Virus record (IMG/VR): IMGVR_UViG_3300049440_000359
Coordinates: 1-20,485 of that record
Direction: 5' to 3' (one strand)
DNA length: 20,485 nt
From: a virus
The notes under the pieces are model-generated. The model saw nothing but the letters and a program-made list of their open reading frames with translations, had not been told where the DNA came from and did no database searches. Shown here one piece after another: positions 1,015-20,485 of this stretch; the stretch's first letter is position 1; each line of letters opens with the position of its first letter. A program made the translations under genes and the position numbers.

Positions 1015-1938
1015 TTAGGCCCCCGGATTTCCATAGATCCCGCGCCAGCCGTAAAACCCGAAATCGGCGCGGTACCGCATGTACACGTAGCCGACCTCGT
1101 TCTTCTCGAGGTAATCGGACTTGGTGTAGGGCTGCTTGCGCCACAGCCACATGGTTTCGGTGTCGTTCGGAGGAGCGACTAAGAACCAGGCGTCCGGGTC
1201 GGTCAGGAACGACCAGATGATCGGGTCGATCGTGCCGCCGTTCTCGGTGTACTTGAAGGCGTTCGTTGCGCGGTTGGCGGTGTCCGAGCGGTCCTGAGAT
1301 TTCAGGATCTCGTACGCGTTCCAGCGATTGCTGGGATGGATCAGCACGTTGGGAGTCGGCAAGAGCTGCAGAAAACCCTCGTGCGTTTTGGTGACTTCCC
1401 AGTCGGTCATGGCCAGCTCGAGAGAGGTGATGTCGAGGTCCGCGGCGGTGCCGAGGTTGGTCTGCGTGCCGCCGGCTTTCACTAACGGGTGGATGGCGGA
1501 GCACAGAGGCTGTCCGTCCGGGCCGGGGTAGTTGGTGCCGTCGAAGGCGTTGTTGTAGACGCTGGCTCCCTGGATCTCGATCGTCTGGTTGATCGAGTTG
1601 GCGAGAGCAACTGCGCGCTTCGAGATGATGCCGACCTGGTCGTCTTCGACCAGCTCCTGCGAGGCCGCGATGCCCAAGCCGAACTTGGCCGGCTTGAACG
1701 TCTTGTTGTAACCCTGTACGAAGGTATCTACCGGGGTGTCCGCGCCTTCGTTGATCTTGCTTGCGAGTCCTACGCCGGCCATCTGCGAGAACTGCTCGAT
1801 CATGCGGTTGGTGGTGTCGGTGTTCAACAGCTTGGCGTATAGCTGCTGCTTCTGGTTGTAGGTTTTCCAGATCTTGGCGTTGAGCGCCGGCAGCATCGTG
1901 GTGTCGAAGAAGTCGGAGAAATTGCCGCGAATCATCAT
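1015..1938 (-). CDS. Major capsid protein (HK97-fold type)
   Basis: 307 residues, the expected size for a small HK97-fold capsid subunit without a large N-terminal delta domain. Features seen: an N-terminal helical arm (FFDTTMLPALNAKIW), a central helix (SQELVEDDQVGIISKRAVALANSI) and an A-domain-like segment, LPTPNVLIHPSNRWNAYEIL, where P-x-V-L-I-x-P followed by a helix is typical of phage and Mu-type major head subunits. Near the C-terminus it carries YVYMRYRADFGFYGWRGIYG, rich in aromatic residues. It directly follows the decoration-like gene (two-base gap) and is downstream of portal and scaffold-like genes, the classical head-module order. Fold assignment rests on motif and context; a structure prediction would settle it. 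Confidence 0.85.
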   Translation of the reverse strand: MMIRGNFSDFFDTTMLPALNAKIWKTYNQKQQLYAKLLNTDTTNRMIEQFSQMAGVGLASKINEGADTPVDTFVQGYNKTFKPAKFGLGIAASQELVEDDQVGIISKRAVALANSINQTIEIQGASVYNNAFDGTNYPGPDGQPLCSAIHPLVKAGGTQTNLGTAADLDITSLELAMTDWEVTKTHEGFLQLLPTPNVLIHPSNRWNAYEILKSQDRSDTANRATNAFKYTENGGTIDPIIWSFLTDPDAWFLVAPPNDTETMWLWRKQPYTKSDYLEKNEVGYVYMRYRADFGFYGWRGIYGNPGA

Positions 1939-2629: not shown

Positions 2630-2806
2630 CTAGTTACTAACTTCGCGTAATTCGCTGGCTTCGGCTTTTAACTGCTGCTTCAGTTTGGCCTCTGCACAAC
2701 GGGCACAGAACTTACCGCAGCTTCCGTTCCAGCGGTCAAAGACTTCTTTGCTGGCGCGTTTGGGACACGCCGCGCACTTGACCTGAAGATATTTGAGATA
2801 GGCCAC
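2630..2806 (-). CDS. Small zinc-finger protein, start uncertain
   Basis: About 58 residues if the GTG at 2804-2806 is used. Sequence: VAYLKYLQVKCAACPKRAS, then WNGSCGKFCARCAEAKLKQQL and a Lys/Glu-rich helix. CxxC near residue 11 and CGKFCARC near residue 30 look like a small treble-clef or zinc-ribbon motif, common in phage accessory proteins. The same frame stays open upstream to 3070, but that part is only translated repeats (EAAG, GSCG, KLR) and is unlikely to be protein. No good Shine-Dalgarno is seen before GTG. One exact copy of the 11-base interspersed repeat (2715-2725) falls inside the second zinc-binding segment and encodes GSCG, so the repeat family and this gene have become entangled. 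Confidence 0.45.
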   Translation of the reverse strand: MAYLKYLQVKCAACPKRASKEVFDRWNGSCGKFCARCAEAKLKQQLKAEASELREVSN

Positions 2807-3149
2807 AACGTCGTTCTTGACCCGCAGCTTCCGGTGCGTGCGTTCTACCGTGCTCCCGCAGCTTCCAGACTTCGCAAACCCCGCAGCTTCCGAGCCAATC
2901 CGGCGGCACCGCAGCTTCCACGGTGACGGGCATGCCGCAGCTTCCCGCACATCGCAAAGGCGTCCCGCAGCTTCCCGGCCAGTTGGGCACCACCCGCAGC
3001 TTCTACCGGTGAACTGCCCCGCAGCTTCCGCGACCAGGCGGGCCGCATGCCGTAGCTTCCCGGTGGCCAAGCGAACAGCCCGCAGCTTCCGGCAATTCGG
3101 TCCGCCTGCCCGCAGCTTCCTGTCTTCCGAACCTGGTCCCGCAGCCGCC
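2715..3149 (-). repeat. Interspersed 11-base repeat array, copy A (GGAAGCTGCGG)
   Basis: On the plus strand the unit reads CCGCAGCTTCC, often with a further C in front. Copies start at 2715, 2822, 2856, 2881, 2909, 2935, 2965, 2994 (last base T), 3019, 3050 (GTAG variant), 3080, 3110 and 3139 (degenerate, joined to the head element). From 2822 on, start-to-start spacing is 34, 25, 28, 26, 30, 29, 25, 31, 30, 30 and 29, so spacers are 14-23 bases and none resembles another. In the three minus-strand frames the unit encodes GSCG, EAA(G) or KLR, and all three appear among neighbouring copies. The array therefore keeps no reading frame. Function unknown; it fills most of a gap in an otherwise tight operon. 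Confidence 0.9.
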
Positions 3150-3279
3150 GGTAAAAATTCAGTGGAAGCTTACGCGGCTGCCGCGGCCTAATGCGCGGAT
3201 ATCGCGTACGTTTAGCAGCTTTCCGCGGACGTTCGGGCCGGCAAGCGTGCCCGACGGTGACCGCGCTGCGCCTGACGGT
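3138..3279 (-). repeat. Conserved head block of repeat element, copy A
   Basis: This block aligns without gaps to 18781-18922 at about 108 of 142 identical positions (counted by eye). Both copies are in the same orientation, with the short-repeat array on the low-coordinate side. Mismatches fall 11, 12 and 11 on the three codon positions of the minus-strand frame that is open in both copies, so nothing suggests purifying selection on protein. That frame gives similar peptides (RKAAKRTRYPR against RKAVKRTGYSR), but copy B meets a stop where copy A reads Tyr. Each copy can form a GC-rich hairpin (CGCG arms near 3183-3198 here). Best read as a non-coding DNA or RNA element. Confidence 0.8.
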
Positions 3280-3300
3280 GGCGCTCAAGTCCTATTCTGC

Positions 3301-3332
3301 GGGTTGTGGGTTATGGGGTGATGGGTGATGGG
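3301..3332 (+). repeat. G-tract heptad repeat (telomere-like)
   Basis: Five G-runs on the plus strand: GGG TTGT GGG TTAT GGGG TGAT GGG TGAT GGG. The period is 7 bases with one extra G. The pattern satisfies the usual G-quadruplex rule of four or more G3 runs with short loops. It lies between the head block and the second short-repeat cluster. Related tracts with the same period occur at 8612-8642 and 11542-11565 with the G-rich strand inverted. Confidence 0.85.
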
Positions 3333-3352
3333 CAGGCCACCCTGTGCATATC

Positions 3353-3480
3353 CCGCAGCTTCCATTTGTTGCAGCATCCCGCAGCTTCCAGGCACAAACA
3401 CCCGACGTGTGCCCGCAGCTTCCTGATCAAGGTCATCTACCCCGCGGCTTCCGCTATACCCGCATTGTCCCGCAGCTTCC
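3353..3480 (-). repeat. Second cluster of the 11-base repeat
   Basis: Five units of CCGCAGCTTCC (plus strand) start at 3353, 3379, 3413, 3442 (GCGG variant) and 3470. Spacing is 26, 34, 29 and 28 bases, the same range as the main array. The last unit ends 13 bases from the stop codon of the 198 aa gene at 3494. Between 3280 and 3352 only the G-tract heptads are seen; no gene is supported there. This cluster makes copy A a head block with arrays on both sides. Confidence 0.88.
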
Positions 3481-3493
3481 GCTGCCATCATAT

Positions 3494-4090
3494 CTAATCG
3501 GCCACGGCTGTTCTGCCGCCCTCTTCGAGGTACTGTTGCTTGACCTGCCCGAGCAGCTTGTTGCCGTGCTCCCGTACGGCCTTGTTGCGGGCCACGGCTA
3601 CCGACTCCGGCATCATGGCAAGAAACTGATTCCGGACTTTGACCTGCTTGCCGTCCGCGTCGAGCACCGGCACCCAGCCGCGCATACCGCGCCGGTCGAC
3701 TACAGACGGCGACAGGAACCGTCCACGCATGCCGGGCGGGATGTGCTCGGCCATCGCTTCCTTCATCGGGTTCGGCGCGTCCGACAGCGTCATGCCGAGA
3801 TCGACCACCGCGTCTTTGCGGTGCTCGAGTGCCTTGCTGAACTCGTCGCGCGTGACCCGTGCCGCTGATTCGCTCTTGCCCTCGTTAGCCTCGGCGATGC
3901 CTTCGTCGGTCTGCTGGTACAGGATGCGTCCCTGAGCCTCGATCGGCATATCCGACACCAGCACACCGCCCACATGCAGATCGAGCACCGGGTTTGCCGG
4001 GAAGTCGTCAGGCGGGGTGCGCGTCAGCACCGGGCTATCGCCGATGCCTGCGGCTTCTGCGCCGGTATCAAACTGTTTCTTGTTTGGCAT
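3494..4090 (-). CDS. Hypothetical phage head-module protein
   Basis: 198 residues starting MPNKKQFDTGAEAAG. GGAGGAG lies seven bases before the ATG, and the stop codon of the upstream scaffold-like gene abuts the ATG with no gap, so the two are co-translated. The protein is hydrophilic and mostly helical, with an acidic middle (EGIAEANEGKSESAARVTRDEF) and a basic helix near the C-terminus (ARNKAVREHGNKLLGQVKQQYLEEG). No catalytic motif, cysteine pair or membrane segment is visible. Position between scaffold-like and decoration genes suggests a head-assembly or internal head protein. The first residues resemble those of the preceding gene (MPN), but the rest is unrelated. Family not recognised. 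Confidence 0.75.
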   Translation of the reverse strand: MPNKKQFDTGAEAAGIGDSPVLTRTPPDDFPANPVLDLHVGGVLVSDMPIEAQGRILYQQTDEGIAEANEGKSESAARVTRDEFSKALEHRKDAVVDLGMTLSDAPNPMKEAMAEHIPPGMRGRFLSPSVVDRRGMRGWVPVLDADGKQVKVRNQFLAMMPESVAVARNKAVREHGNKLLGQVKQQYLEEGGRTAVAD

Positions 4091-4939
4091 TTATCGTCTC
4101 CTCCGCATGCCGTCCGTTTTCTTCTTCTCAGTCAGGAATTCCTCGTTGGTGATTCCCATCTGCTTGACCAACTGCTTCGCCTGCGGGCCGAGGCTGTCGT
4201 CGGGGTCTTCGAGCGGTGCGCGTCCGGGCCGGTTATCCTGTGCCGCTACGCGGGCACGCCGGTCGGTCTCCACGCGGTCGTACTCGTCGCCGTCGTCGCC
4301 GTCGTCCTTTTTGCTGCGCGCCTCCATCGCCAGGCGGGACTTGGCCGCTTTGGCCGCGGCGAACAGAGTTGCCGGCGATTTTTTCGCCTGCGGATCGAAC
4401 GCAATCAGCTCCTGAAACTCTTCCGCCGTCGCGCGGAACAGAGCGGACTTGTTGTCGGCCAGTTCCGGGAATTTCGTCATCAGCTGCGAGTCGGTCGAGA
4501 TCTTGCCGCGCTCCACATCGACCGTGCGCCGGGCTACCTTCGCCGCGATCTCGGCGACCTGCTGCGCGTTGACGTACCCCTCGGTGGCCTTGGCCACCAG
4601 AGCCTGGATGGCGCGCGGTCCTTTACTGATCGCCTCGAGCCACTTGTCGGGGTCATGGAAGATGGCTTCGTCTACGTCCGACGTGCCGGTGACTGCCGGC
4701 GGCAGCAAGTCGGATGTCTCGATCGGGTCTTCTTCTTCGGCTGGCGCAGCTTGCTGCGGGTGCCCGTTGCCATTGCCGCGGGCGCGGTCTGCCCAGAACC
4801 GTTCGCTGGCGCGGGCCTCGCCGAGCTCGCGCTCCATGCGGGCCAGCTCGGCTTTCGATACGGTGACGGTTTCCGCCTGGCCTTTCGGCGCTGCGGGCTG
4901 GTCTACTGCCTCGTTGTCGAGGACGTCTTCATTAGGCAT
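4091..4939 (-). CDS. Scaffold-like head assembly protein
   Basis: 282 residues, highly charged and predicted almost wholly helical. Residues about 25-50 form a short coiled coil (SKAELARMERELGEARASERFW). A disordered Gly/Asn/Gln/Glu-rich linker follows, then a helical centre with repeated Ala/Lys/Glu, an acidic run (KKDDGDDGDEYDR) and a basic C-terminus (EKKKTDGMRRRR). An acidic helical body with a basic tail that can bind the capsid is the usual design of phage scaffolding proteins, and the gene lies between portal and capsid, where scaffold genes normally sit. The ATG directly follows the stop codon of the zinc-ribbon gene. No protease motif is seen. The scaffold role is inference. Confidence 0.65.
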   Translation of the reverse strand: MPNEDVLDNEAVDQPAAPKGQAETVTVSKAELARMERELGEARASERFWADRARGNGNGHPQQAAPAEEEDPIETSDLLPPAVTGTSDVDEAIFHDPDKWLEAISKGPRAIQALVAKATEGYVNAQQVAEIAAKVARRTVDVERGKISTDSQLMTKFPELADNKSALFRATAEEFQELIAFDPQAKKSPATLFAAAKAAKSRLAMEARSKKDDGDDGDEYDRVETDRRARVAAQDNRPGRAPLEDPDDSLGPQAKQLVKQMGITNEEFLTEKKKTDGMRRRR

Positions 4940-5287
4940 TTAACGCAATCCTGCTTTGTATCCGAACTCCGTAGGGCCATACAGCTCCTTCCGTTTCTTC
5001 ACGTACTTGGCGTCGCACGCCAGGCACATCATCCGGTAGACGCCGTTTTCCATATGGCACACCATGCGGTTCTGGCCGATTGCCCGCAGCGTGTCCCACG
5101 GCGTGTGACACTCGCTGCACTCGGTCGGAGGCGTGCCCGTGGCCAGCGCGTGCAGTGCCTCCTCGTGCCGGTGGAAGCAGTCGACACACTGACTAAAGCC
5201 GGTGTGCCGGATCATGTCGTACGGACTGCGGAACCGCCGGCAGGACGGGCAAATCTCGGCTACGTGTACCGCTGCCGGTGCGGTCAT
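4940..5287 (-). CDS. Double zinc-ribbon protein
   Basis: 115 residues with four CxxC pairs: CPSC (about residue 13), CVDC (about 34), CSEC (about 57) and CLAC (about 88), plus extra Cys/His between them. This suggests two zinc ribbons in tandem. The C-terminus is basic (KYVKKRKELYG). AAAGAGG a few bases before the ATG is a plausible ribosome site. It is the first minus-strand gene after the plus-strand toxin-antitoxin cassette, so this segment of the operon may restart transcription in the 61-base divergent gap 5288-5348. Zinc ribbons of this kind bind nucleic acid or protein partners; no enzyme domain is present. Exact function unknown. Confidence 0.75.
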   Translation of the reverse strand: MTAPAAVHVAEICPSCRRFRSPYDMIRHTGFSQCVDCFHRHEEALHALATGTPPTECSECHTPWDTLRAIGQNRMVCHMENGVYRMMCLACDAKYVKKRKELYGPTEFGYKAGLR

Positions 5288-5348: not shown

Positions 5349-5585
5349 ATGGCCCCTTCTAATCAAGTGATCGTCAGTGATCCGGAACTTATGGGCGGCA
5401 CGCCGTGCTTCCGTGGCACGCGCGTACCGTTTGAAAACCTGATCGACTACCTCGAGAGCTATGAAGCTCTGGATGAATTTCTAGATAACTTTCCATCGGT
5501 TACTCGCGAAGAAGCGATTGCGGCGCTCGAGCACGCGAAAGACTTAGTTCTTGCGGAGGCGCACGCTGAAACTACTTCTCGATGA
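5349..5585 (+). CDS. DUF433-family antitoxin
   Basis: 78 residues. The motif GGTPCFRGTRVPFENLIDYLE followed by EFLDNFPSVTREEAIAALEHA is the hallmark of DUF433 proteins, small winged-helix-like proteins usually encoded directly before a PIN-like DUF5615 gene and thought to be the DNA-binding antitoxin of the pair. That is the arrangement here: the stop codon overlaps the start of the next gene. There is no Shine-Dalgarno before the ATG and a -10-like box ends seven bases upstream. The cassette runs opposite to the phage operon, as expected for an autonomously expressed moron. By family analogy it binds and neutralises the partner and represses its own promoter. Confidence 0.9.
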   Translation: MAPSNQVIVSDPELMGGTPCFRGTRVPFENLIDYLESYEALDEFLDNFPSVTREEAIAALEHAKDLVLAEAHAETTSR

Positions 5586-5895
5586 ATGTCTGCCGACCGC
5601 TCTGAGACGGCGCTTTCGTGAGCACGAGTGCTGTACGGTGCGTGAGATGGGCTGGGCCGGTAAGAAGAACGGCGCGCTCCTGGATCTTGCTATCAGCGAG
5701 CAGTTTGATGTTTTGATCACCGCCGACAAAAACATAGAGCATCAACAGAACTTCGCGGGCCGCAAGATAGCCTTGCTCGTACTCGGGGCGCATTCGACGA
5801 AGATAAAAGATTTGCTGCCGCTCCTTCCGGCTGCTCGTACCGCGCTCGATCGTCTACAGCCTGGAACTGTCGTGCGCGTGGCCGCGAAATCTTAA
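5551..5895 (+). CDS. DUF5615 PIN-like toxin
   Basis: Up to 114 residues. The core KLLLDECLPTALRRRF ... HECCTVREMGWAGKKNGALLDLA ... DVLITADKNIEHQQN is typical of DUF5615 PIN-like nucleases, with acidic residues in LLDE, in LLDLA and in TAD forming the likely metal site. Start choice: TTG at 5551 has no ribosome site. A CTG at 5566 gives the family's usual first residues (M)KLLLDE and has GGAGG six bases upstream, so CTG may be the true start. The frame overlaps the antitoxin gene by 20-35 bases, pointing to translational coupling. The likely target is RNA, by PIN-family knowledge. The pair would act as an addiction or phage-defence module in the prophage. Confidence 0.85.
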   Translation: MRRRTLKLLLDECLPTALRRRFREHECCTVREMGWAGKKNGALLDLAISEQFDVLITADKNIEHQQNFAGRKIALLVLGAHSTKIKDLLPLLPAARTALDRLQPGTVVRVAAKS

Positions 5896-5896
5896 A

Positions 5897-6199
5897 ATGC
5901 CCAAATCACCAAGAACTCTGCCGCCAACTCACCCTGGCGCAATCCTGCTCGAAGACCTACAGGATTGCGGAGTCAGTATTAACGGTCTGGCTCGTGCCAT
6001 TGGCGTGTCGCCTAGCCGCATCAGCCAGCTCGTGAACGGGAAACGCGACATTACCGCAGACACTGCCGTGCGGCTTGCCCGTTACTTTGGCTGCTCGGCG
6101 CAGTACTGGCTGAACCTTCAGAATCATTTTGATCTGGAATCTGTGGCTGATCGGCAAAGCATCGAAAGCCACGTCGTCCCGTATAAGAAGAGCGCCTAA
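5897..6199 (+). CDS. higA: HigA-family XRE antitoxin
   Basis: 100 residues. It begins PKSPRTLPPTHPGAILLEDL, the HigA-family lead-in (P-x-HPG-x-x-L), followed by a helix-turn-helix (SINGLARAIGVSPSRISQLVNGKRDITADTAVRLARYF) and the family tail AQYWLNLQNHFDLE. The ATG comes one base after the stop of the PIN-like gene, so it is the third gene of the cassette. HigA normally pairs with a RelE-fold HigB toxin encoded just before it; no HigB is present and the preceding gene is the PIN-like one. It may serve as an added transcriptional repressor of the cassette or be an orphan. Its last four bases overlap the end of the convergent minus-strand gene. Confidence 0.9.
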   Translation: MPKSPRTLPPTHPGAILLEDLQDCGVSINGLARAIGVSPSRISQLVNGKRDITADTAVRLARYFGCSAQYWLNLQNHFDLESVADRQSIESHVVPYKKSA

Positions 6200-6447: not shown

Positions 6448-6747
6448 TTATCTATGCCAGCCGTGCTTCCGCGGCGCTTCCGCCTTGTCAGCTACCGGCG
6501 CTTCGGACGGCGGCGCGGCGGCCACGGCGTCAGCCGGCGGTTGTTCCGGCGGCGCATAGACCAGCTCGCAGATGGCGTCCACTATTTCGAGGGCCCGTGC
6601 CGCCAGGTCGGACGGAGGAATGCCGCCGGCGTCGACGCCGTGCGGTGCGACCAGTCCGGAGGTCACAATGGCCGCTGCCTGGACGCGCTGTTCCGGCGGT
6701 ATCGGAGAGGCCGCGGCCTCGGTTGCTGTTTGTCGTTCTTGCTTCAT
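6448..6747 (-). CDS. Small phage protein, paralogue of the 7923-8213 product
   Basis: 99 residues from the ATG at 6745-6747, which has GAGGA in front of it. An upstream in-frame extension to 6969 would run into the beta-propeller gene and is rejected. Residues about 15-66 match the product at 7923-8213 at 40 of 52 positions, including HG-[VI]-DAGGIPPS-[DE]-LAARALEIV. The C-terminus is a Pro/Ala/Glu-rich linker ending in a basic HGWHR. The conserved segment is one predicted helical domain. The two copies flank the beta-propeller gene and one 88 aa gene, which suggests local duplication. No known family is recognised; a virion-associated role is plausible from location. Confidence 0.75.
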   Translation of the reverse strand: MKQERQTATEAAASPIPPEQRVQAAAIVTSGLVAPHGVDAGGIPPSDLAARALEIVDAICELVYAPPEQPPADAVAAAPPSEAPVADKAEAPRKHGWHR

Positions 6748-7922: not shown

Positions 7923-8213
7923 TCAGACCGGCGTCAGCGTAATCACGCCGCTGACGGCCTCGCCGCCGGCGCCTGGAGGCGGGATCACGATCGGATGCTC
8001 CGGCACGGCAGGCGGCTCATAGACCGCCTGGGTAATCGCGTTCACGATTTCGAGAGCCCGCGCCGCCAGTTCGGACGGAGGAATGCCGCCGGCGTCTATG
8101 CCGTGCGCGGATACGAGGCCGGAGGCGACGATTGCCGCGGCCTGTACCTGCTGTTCCGGCGTGATCGGATTGCCGGCGGCCAGCTCCAATGTTTTTAGCC
8201 GGACGAGTTTCAT
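7923..8213 (-). CDS. Small phage protein, paralogue of the 6448-6747 product
   Basis: 96 residues starting MKLVRLKTLELAAGNPITPEQ. The central 52 residues match the 6448-6747 product at 40 positions (QAAAIV, DAGGIPPS, LAARALEIV). The C-terminus differs: a Pro-rich linker then AVSGVITLTPV, a beta strand like the end of the neighbouring Ig-like protein (GGDITFTPAAK). The ATG overlaps the stop of the preceding gene in an ATGA. Two paralogues so close together with divergent tails suggest duplication followed by tail exchange, with each copy perhaps fitting a different virion partner. Family unknown. Confidence 0.75.
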   Translation of the reverse strand: MKLVRLKTLELAAGNPITPEQQVQAAAIVASGLVSAHGIDAGGIPPSELAARALEIVNAITQAVYEPPAVPEHPIVIPPPGAGGEAVSGVITLTPV

Positions 8214-18655: not shown

Positions 18656-18754
18656 CCCGCAGCTTCCGCGCACGCGCGAGCGGCTACGCGGGCAGCGGCC
18701 GGCTTTACCGCACCAGCGCATCCCGCAGCTTCCGCGCACGCGCGAGCAGCTACG
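18656..18754 (-). repeat. 11-base repeat array, copy B, with 33-base direct repeat
   Basis: CCGCAGCTTCC (plus strand) occurs at 18657 and 18723, with a degenerate unit at 18782 that starts the head block. Units 1 and 2 carry the same following spacer: 18656-18688 and 18722-18754 match over 33 bases with a single G/A difference, spaced 66 bases apart. Copy A has no such shared spacers. No gene is supported between 18642 and 19495; minus-strand frames here translate repeat peptides only. Confidence 0.85.
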
Positions 18755-18780
18755 GCCCAATCCGAACTGACTGAACTGCC

Positions 18781-18922
18781 CCCGCAGCTGGCGCTAAAAA
18801 CAAAGTGGAAGCCCACGGGGCTGCCGCGCGGCGAACCGCGAATATCCCGTGCGTTTAACAGCCTTCCGCGAGCGGCTGGGCCGGTAAACGTACCCGCCGG
18901 TGATCGCGCTGGGCTTGTCGGT
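18781..18922 (-). repeat. Conserved head block of repeat element, copy B
   Basis: Gapless partner of 3138-3279, about 76% identical. It preserves a GC hairpin around 18828-18841: CGCGG and CCGCG pair around a CGAA loop, at the place where copy A has CGCG arms with an eight-base loop, while the sequence between differs. The minus-strand frame across it contains a TAG/TAA-type stop where copy A reads through. It has the same orientation as copy A relative to its array. Confidence 0.8.
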
Positions 18923-18940
18923 AGCCCAAAATGGTCGAAC

Positions 18941-19495: not shown

Positions 19496-20455
19496 TTAGA
19501 GGCCAATCAAGCCGGCAGCGCAAGCGTTAAACAGACCTATCGGTCTGAAGTAAGTTTTGAGGCTGTCCAAAGATCGATGGCCGGAGGTGGCCGCTATAAC
19601 GAGTGGCGAGACTCCTGCGATTCCTGCTTCGGTGATGAGGCCGGCCCTAAGCGAATGGGGTCCGCAGAGAGCCGCATCGAGTCCAGTCGCTGCGATCGAT
19701 TTTTTCACAATCTTGCCGATGGCGTTGAAGCTCAGCGGCTCCAGATCACTCTTCCGGTTGCTATCCAGCCGCGTGAACAGTGGCCCGCTCTCCGAACCTC
19801 TGATAGCCAGCCATCGATTCAGCGCCCGTACAGGACAGGTAGATTCGTTGGTTCCGCGCGGCACGGCGATCAGACGCCCGATGCTCTGCCGGTCGTTTTT
19901 TTCGCGTCTGACCAGCACGACGAATCCCTTATCGCAAAATGTGATGTCTTCCCTGCGGAGCATCGACAGATTCGATCTTCTGAGAGCACTTGCGAATCCG
20001 ACCAGCAGAAGGCCGCAATCCCTTATTGCGGGAGGCGTCCCTTTTTGGCTGAGTATGAGTGCAGCCTGGCGAAGTTCCTGGACAGCGAGAGGCCGCATCT
20101 GCCTAAGCTGCTCGCAGCGCAACCGGCGGGCCCCGCGGAGCAGCTGGCGTACCGAAGTATCCGCCGGCGACGGATAGCCTGCCCGCTCGTGCATGTAAGT
20201 GACAGCCGCAGCGCGCCGCGAAACGGTCGATACCTTTTTGCGGGTGAGTTGATCAACCAGAAAAAGCGAAAGTGTCTCGCTGGTCGCGGGCATGGGGACG
20301 CGTTCGACCCAGGCGCACCACTTACAAAAGTTTTCCCAATCGCGTTTATATCCATACTCGGTGATCGGCGCCAGTTCCGCAGCCCGCAGTCTACGGATTT
20401 CGGTACGAAGCGATTCCAGATCAGGGCGAGAGGGAATAGAGGAAATTACAGTCAC
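19496..20455 (-). CDS. int: Tyrosine recombinase / phage integrase
   Basis: 319 residues from a GTG at 20453-20455. The frame remains open through the last 30 bases of the window, so the true start could lie outside. N-terminal SAM-like core-binding domain (about 1-110: YKRDWENFCKWCAW, SLFLVDQL, VSRRAAAVTYMHERAG), then the catalytic domain with Arg159 in ALRRSNLSMLRREDI, Lys186 in RREKNDRQ, HxxR at 267-270 (PHSLRAG), His293 in SGHRSLDSLK and the nucleophile Tyr302 in TYFRP. All active-site residues are present, so it should be functional. It would integrate or excise the prophage. No excisionase is seen. It is followed by the structured non-coding region. Confidence 0.92.
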   Translation of the reverse strand: MTVISSIPSRPDLESLRTEIRRLRAAELAPITEYGYKRDWENFCKWCAWVERVPMPATSETLSLFLVDQLTRKKVSTVSRRAAAVTYMHERAGYPSPADTSVRQLLRGARRLRCEQLRQMRPLAVQELRQAALILSQKGTPPAIRDCGLLLVGFASALRRSNLSMLRREDITFCDKGFVVLVRREKNDRQSIGRLIAVPRGTNESTCPVRALNRWLAIRGSESGPLFTRLDSNRKSDLEPLSFNAIGKIVKKSIAATGLDAALCGPHSLRAGLITEAGIAGVSPLVIAATSGHRSLDSLKTYFRPIGLFNACAAGLIGL

Positions 20456-20485
20456 ATGCCCGAGTGTGGCGTAACCGACCGGGCT

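Follow-up and report, generated by a model that had tools for sequence, protein, structure and literature searches.

What function does an array of very short repeats perform in the head operon of a phage? This question is raised by the array at positions 2715–3480 (array A) of IMG/VR record IMGVR_UViG_3300049440_000359, whose positions 1–20,485 form the window that was analysed in this work (20,485 nucleotides). The window is 100% identical to bases 1734–22218 of IMGVR_UViG_3300047089_000265 (46.6 kb; hereafter G001), which is the same phage, a soil bacteriophage with four such arrays (A, B, C, and D). An independent metagenome assembly of 7.2 kb (L012) has the same array up to the end of that assembly. 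The arrays are very probably multiplex guide RNAs of a phage-borne, nuclease-dead, type V-F-like Cas12f system of the CRISPR (clustered regularly interspaced short palindromic repeats) kind, in which little beyond the mature CRISPR RNAs (crRNAs) is encoded. The phage probably binds rather than cuts other DNA using many short guides. The computed support consists of the homology of the effector, the loss of its catalytic residues, a covarying trans-activating CRISPR RNA (tracrRNA) element, the covariation of repeat and anti-repeat, and the presence of full and truncated repeats in relatives. The coordinates of the features are shown in Table 1.

Characteristics of array A

The sequence CCGCAGCTTCC occurs at 2715–3480 as 14 exact copies, three copies with one mismatch (2994, 3050, and 3442), and one copy with two mismatches (3139). 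The exact copies in the array share a single orientation and none is on the opposite strand. Across the whole window, 16 exact matches were observed against 0.02 in dinucleotide shuffles of the window, and the two exact copies outside array A are located at 18657 and 18723. An earlier reading made from the letters alone (the sequence-only reading) had described an array of about 18 copies, which is confirmed and lies far above chance. The spacing of 25–34 bases and the unequal spacers are also as it described. The start-to-start distances are a mixture of 25, 26, 28, 29, 30, 31, and 34, so neither a spacing in multiples of three nor a single reading frame is kept, as it had noted. It was likewise right that the array interrupts the head operon and that the window holds no textbook CRISPR. 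The repeats in this phage are 12 bases, below normal CRISPR length. Array A is real; it does not encode a protein repeat, and its likeness to a CRISPR is more than superficial.

The inexact copy at 3139 is the end of a structured element of about 154 bases (3137–3290), which splits a block of 11 units from a block of five units. The RNA strand of array A appears to be the minus strand because homologs carry the RNA element on the strand of the dead Cas12f gene; on this strand the repeat would read GGAAGCTGCGGG and each spacer would follow its repeat. The plus strand of the window was also considered as the RNA strand and was dropped once the homologs showed the element on the other strand. Duplex energies computed on the plus-strand orientation were wrong or uninformative and were superseded by the comparison of repeat and anti-repeat across phages. 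A count of GU/AC as a strand test is biased by the model and was left unused. The lone copy at 2715 forms the codons GSCG inside a small open reading frame (2630–2806, minus strand) with a cysteine-rich product (CxxC...CGKFCxxC). This copy may belong to the array as an outlier, or it may simply be coding sequence of that reading frame.

The effector is a predicted nuclease-dead Cas12f homolog

The gene g42 lies beside array C. No match to g42 was found in Pfam, and PADLOC assigned it to Cas12f at 2.4e-6. Two AlphaFold models of g42, built from alignments of 3 and 5 homologs (predicted local distance difference test, pLDDT, of 69 and 75), were searched with Foldseek, and all top matches are Cas12f (E about 1e-14). 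A dCas12f-gRNA complex (PDB 9n9c and 9n9m, compared by PDB title only) is among the closest structure matches. The five-homolog profile of g42 matches OsCas12f at 1.7e-8 and SpCas12f1 at 9e-7. The same nuclease-dead protein has 19 gene matches in other viral contigs, which come from 16–17 further phages, and seven of the eight effectors of relatives that were scanned match Cas12f at 3e-4 to 2e-13.

The Asp of RuvC-I (GVDxG) aligns with Thr in g42, and this Asp is absent in every homolog that covers RuvC-I. The Glu of RuvC-II is replaced by Asp in the g42 alignments and mostly by Asp across the homologs. The effector chains end before RuvC-III. The proteins hence have the Cas12f homology of type V-F and do not have its active RuvC (D-E-D) and C-terminal zinc-finger region. 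As judged from these alignments, g42 and its homologs are Cas12f proteins that are nuclease-dead by nature. Genes for adaptation were not recognised in this phage.

A structured RNA element accompanies every array

One copy of the RNA element is present in each of the four arrays of G001, and the copies are 75–86% identical. Compensatory changes on both sides are found in 11 of the 47 predicted pairs of the four elements; 0 of 500 shuffles scored as high, and 0–1 pairs were left when the partner was slid by 1–3 columns. A covariance model that was built from the four G001 elements alone detects about 14 other family contigs at E <= 0.001 (best 7e-14). The detected elements share the strand of the dead Cas12f gene and, in most of the loci that were inspected, follow it directly downstream. 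The covariation score of 18 sequences, whose alignment was fitted to the model, is 0.454 against 0.146 when shuffled and at most 0.096 when slid. Rfam gave no match, and the element was not found in the phage and plasmid records searched.

The tracr sequence that precedes GATAT pairs with the 5' end of the first repeat, and both sides change together across phages. The anti-repeat/repeat pairs are TACGCG/CGCGTA and CACGGG/CCCGTG within G001, CTTGGG/CCCAAG in L060, TCACGG/CCGTGA and CTACGG/CCGTAG in L082, and GCGAGG/CCTCGC in L089. The element thus has an anti-repeat complementary to the repeat, as a type V-F tracrRNA has. Because such a joint change is expected of a tracrRNA anti-repeat, we infer that the RNA element is a tracrRNA plus the first repeat. 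This first repeat, at the end of the element, is the only full-length repeat in G001, and its boundaries in element A were drawn by comparison with L083, L060, and L089. A former model, in which the 5' part of the repeat forms a hairpin within the tracrRNA, was given up in favour of one in which a single full repeat is retained immediately behind the tracrRNA.

Relatives range from full to truncated arrays

The search of IMG/VR with a five-sequence effector alignment identified 20 loci, which represent about 17 phages besides G001. Full repeats of 36–37 bases are found in L065, L080, L083, L085, L088, L089, and L092, and several of these have canonical arrays downstream of the gene. The full repeat is CCCGTAGTGGACACAGGAAAGAGTGTCTGCTGCGGG in L083 and CTCTCAGTACTCATCGGAAGCTGAGAGTGCTGCGGG in L092, and those of L085, L088, L089, and L080 are similar. 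L065 (G007) has nine repeats that run across the contig ends. Mixtures of full and truncated repeats are found in L059, L060, L079, and L094. In L060, fourteen 36-base repeats (CCAAGCGCAACCAAGGGAATGCGCGGAGGCGCTGGC) are followed by units that are reduced to GGAGGCGCTGGC with spacers of 8–22 bases; the short form corresponds to the final 12 bases at the 3' end of the 36-base repeat in L060. Only truncated repeats of 8–12 bases are found in L082 (GGTCACTTCGGG, 36 units), L086 (about AGATCGGTCGGG, at least 20 units), L093 (AGCYTCGGG, 47 units), and the phage studied here. The truncated form corresponds to the 3' terminal part of a full repeat. The median spacer length is 38 bases with full repeats and 15 with truncated repeats. 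The truncated-only arrays occupy separate places in the effector protein tree, whose well-supported branches require three changes or more. Another candidate array (L014/G003) was rejected as a 30-base protein repeat.

These findings bear on two statements of the sequence-only reading, which had set the CRISPR explanation aside because the repeat is so short. Its statement that no cas gene is present is correct for the window and incorrect for the phage, where a Cas12f homolog adjoins array C. Its view that the array resembles a CRISPR only superficially is contradicted by this homolog, which lies next to another copy of the array elsewhere in the genome, and by the relatives with the same gene and tracrRNA-like element, whose 36–37-base repeats end in the short repeat.

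Proposed mechanism

Each unit would consist of the 3' end (about 12 bases) of an ancestral repeat of about 36 bases and a guide of 13–22 bases, which is about the content of a mature Cas12 crRNA. The element of about 154 bases in each array would combine a tracrRNA with the one full-length repeat that has been retained. Transcription of the minus strand of the window would yield the array and the tracrRNA, and the short crRNAs and the tracrRNA would load a dimer of the dead Cas12f, a step that presumes that 12-base units can be loaded. The loaded complex would then bind matching DNA without cleavage. Such binding might block the transcription or replication of competitor phages, or it might silence host genes.

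The mature crRNA of Cas12f has 17 repeat-derived bases and 20 guide bases (PMC8053092), so units of 12 repeat bases and 13–22 spacer bases would be near to ready-made crRNAs. It has also been reported that Cas12f stays considerably active when the second repeat:anti-repeat duplex is removed (PMC8053092). Guided DNA binding without cleavage has been shown for Cas12m and phage TldR (PMC11656645, PMC11013384, PMC13418256), and by analogy the system most likely works like one of these. We consider the chances evenly divided on a more specific proposal. In this proposal, repeats of 8–12 bases with guides of about 15 bases, in arrays of up to about 50 units, are a functional format that serves as a multiplex repressor with the phage dead Cas12f, that arose at least three times from 36-base arrays, and that dispenses with the repeat part pairing with the tracrRNA 3' end.

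Comparison with known systems

The closest known system is type V-F CRISPR-Cas12f (Un1Cas12f and AsCas12f), which shares the effector fold, an effector of about 400 residues, a tracrRNA whose 3' end pairs with the repeat, and an array beside the gene. This phage differs from type V-F in an effector without RuvC catalytic residues and with a truncated chain, in the lack of recognised adaptation genes, and in repeats of 8–12 bases, spacers of about 15 bases, and four dispersed arrays that each have their own tracrRNA copy. The effector and the tracrRNA are thus placed with type V-F by homology, and the system falls outside the ordinary definition of type V-F, which includes an active nuclease and normal repeat length.

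Cas12m (subtype V-M) and the plasmid type IV systems are similar in having a nuclease-inactive effector on a mobile element that binds its targets and blocks transcription (PMC11656645, PMC11013384). The system described here differs from Cas12m in belonging to another Cas12 branch (Cas12f is far ahead of Cas12m in the structure search), in being phage-borne, and in its truncated repeats. Phage TldR is also a phage-encoded, RuvC-dead member of the TnpB/Cas12 superfamily that acts as an RNA-guided regulator (PMC13418256), but it uses one guide RNA, whereas a multi-spacer CRISPR array and a separate tracrRNA are present here. Viral CRISPR mini-arrays and single repeat units are likewise minimal CRISPR parts carried by viruses. 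Their spacers number only one or two and their repeats are full and of the host type (PMC11656645), in contrast to the dozens of truncated units and the own effector of this phage.

Typical CRISPR repeats exceed 20 bases, and array finders tuned to that length should therefore miss arrays of this kind. No report of CRISPR arrays with 8–12-base repeats was found in the literature covered, which excluded most subscription papers and preprints. If the short units work, they would represent the least that a Cas12 guide cassette needs and a compact multiplex format of about 28 bases per guide, and they would reveal a family of about 17 phages that carry RNA-guided binders. The series from full through mixed to truncated arrays makes the compaction of CRISPR arrays testable.

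Alternative explanations

The truncated units might instead be the dead remnants of a Cas12f CRISPR that decays by deletion and recombination. Degenerate units at the distal ends of arrays that are elsewhere full (L060, L094, and L079) agree with such a relic, as do the lack of recognised adaptation genes and of targets found. However, the 12-base core is kept (14 of 18 copies are exact here), whereas the 24 bases that once accompanied it have been lost and the spacers are uniformly shortened, and random decay would not spare the very part that a mature crRNA needs. L082, L086, and L093 hold dozens of units, the tree requires at least three changes of the truncated-only state on well-supported branches, and the four tracr copies preserve their pairing by compensatory change. 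A relic is therefore considered unlikely. It is rather more improbable that the dead Cas12f, the tracr copies, and the arrays act as a decoy that sequesters a host Cas protein or host crRNAs, in the manner of RNA anti-CRISPRs and phage inactive Cas9c. Repeat mimics and inactive Cas9 have been reported in phages for such a purpose (PMC11656645), and the effector is dead in all homologs, but dozens of different spacers, and a dedicated tracrRNA and anti-repeat that co-evolve, would be superfluous for a decoy. A host with matching repeats was also not found. The exact-array search of 84,980 genomes returned 16 matches that are mostly in-frame protein repeats or isolated pairs, with no comparable array; the host is thus not among these genomes or is without the repeat.

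The short, one-sided, and clustered repeats, which are conserved while the spacers vary, would also suit a multi-site protein-binding array for partition, packaging, or stoperator-like repression that is unrelated to guides. This explanation is very improbable, as every array holds a structured RNA that accompanies the dead Cas12f gene in other phages too, the repeat varies from phage to phage in step with the CRISPR repeat's 3' end, and the orientation relative to neighbouring genes is inconstant. The earlier suggestions of partition, packaging, and a selfish repeat find no support, and an RNA scaffold was the closest of those guesses. The least credible alternative is a TIGR array, a Tas-type tandem guide RNA array that is no CRISPR derivative. 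TIGR-Tas arrays resemble these arrays in their short repeats and short spacers in phages and differ in their dual edge/loop repeats, 36-base period, and Nop-domain effector (PMC12045711). One relative of this phage (L051) does carry a TIGR-Tas gene and an array of exact 18/36-base periodicity. The arrays in the window, in contrast, have a single repeat with a spacing of 25–34 bases in place of two alternating repeats in a constant unit of about 36 bases. The scan of gene products recognised no protein with a Nop domain, and the linked effector is Cas12f-like.

Several points weigh against the interpretation as guide RNAs of a dead Cas12f. The strand assignment is drawn from homology and gene order, and the orientation of array D opposes that of its flanking genes. 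The confidence of the g42 model is moderate (pLDDT 75; predicted template modelling score 0.48). No convincing demonstration was obtained of pairing between the 12-base handle and the tracr loop (AR:R1 duplex), some units have guides of 8–14 bases, which is little for a Cas12, and the short-repeat arrays might be decaying. Searches of the phage's own genome, the relatives, and public phage records found no protospacer for any spacer; for most spacers, the set of sequences that was searched was small. A spacer pair of L060 likewise matches nothing else in the viral contigs.

Spacers

One spacer of G007 (L073 372–406, which is G007 75372–75406, and the L074 array) is the exact reverse complement of 35 bases of its own tracr gene. 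Self-regulation is a possible explanation, which would be tolerable with a nuclease-dead, non-cutting effector. The triplet ATG directly follows the repeat on the RNA strand in 8 of 35 spacers of arrays A, C, and D, which is far above 1/64. Near-identical spacer pairs, a few bases or one indel apart, occur within single arrays of L060 (5028–5135), L085 (7479–7667), and L092 (2884 and 3105). They may look as if variants of a target were stored, or the spacers may have diverged after duplication.

Genomic context

The genes around the arrays are phage genes (capsid, terminase, and integrase), and arrays A, C, and D occupy the space directly beside a stop codon.

Table 1. Positions of the arrays, RNA elements, and genes of the phage.
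Feature	Window position	G001 position	Strand	Remarks
Array A	2715–3480	4448–5213		
Array B		20389–20466		
Array C		27900–28613		Adjoins g42
Array D		43387–43874		Opposite strand to the other arrays
Block of 5 truncated repeat-spacer units	3353–3480		minus	RNA strand (predicted): GGAAGCTGCGGG plus spacer of 14–22 bases; upstream of element A on RNA strand
Element A, tracrRNA-like RNA ending in one full-length repeat	3137–3290		minus	Homologous to the three other G001 elements and to the RNA elements of dead-Cas12f contigs
First full-length repeat, at 3' end of element A	3138–3177		minus	5' part CCGCGTA pairs with tracr anti-repeat TACGCG; ends in GGCTGCGGG
Block of 11 truncated repeat-spacer units	2822–3120		minus	Downstream of element A; spacers of 13–22 bases
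Lone exact repeat copy	2715–2725		minus	95 bases past the 11-unit block
Two repeat units of array B	18656–18667 and 18722–18733 (within 18656–18733)		minus	Each with near-identical extension of about 33 bases, also in array C
Element B, second tracrRNA-like element of the window	18780–18933		minus	Recurrence of element A
g42, Cas12f homolog (403 residues)		28620–29831	minus	Beside array C
Head-operon gene	3494–4090		minus	Stop codon 13 bases from the edge of array A
Major capsid protein (Phage_capsid_4)	1015–1938		minus	Marks the phage head context

Five units (window 18656–18755 and G001 27900–28041) share a near-identical long sequence, CCCGCAGCTTCCGCGCGCGTGCGAGCGGCTACG on the plus strand, that replaces the unique spacer. 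This stretch may be a repeated guide or another structural element.

The relative L051, which was recognised as such by its terminase, has its TIGR-Tas gene at 1857–2705 (NF052498 at 6e-58) and arrays at 905–1850 and about 2823–3262. The array alternates GAGCGAGCCG and GAGAGAACCG in exact 18-base steps, which gives a dual-repeat unit of 36 bases. In L051 this system sits beside a gene that is apparently related to the one flanking array B. The presence of TIGR-Tas in a relative suggests a turnover in this lineage, in which one RNA-guided system takes the place of another.

Elsewhere in the window, a toxin-antitoxin-like pair (DUF5615/PIN-like and HTH_3) is located at 5551–6199 on the plus strand, opposite to the head operon. 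Two stretches of 160 bases in the virion operon (8011–8169 and 6548–6706) are about 80% identical and represent a duplicated small gene.
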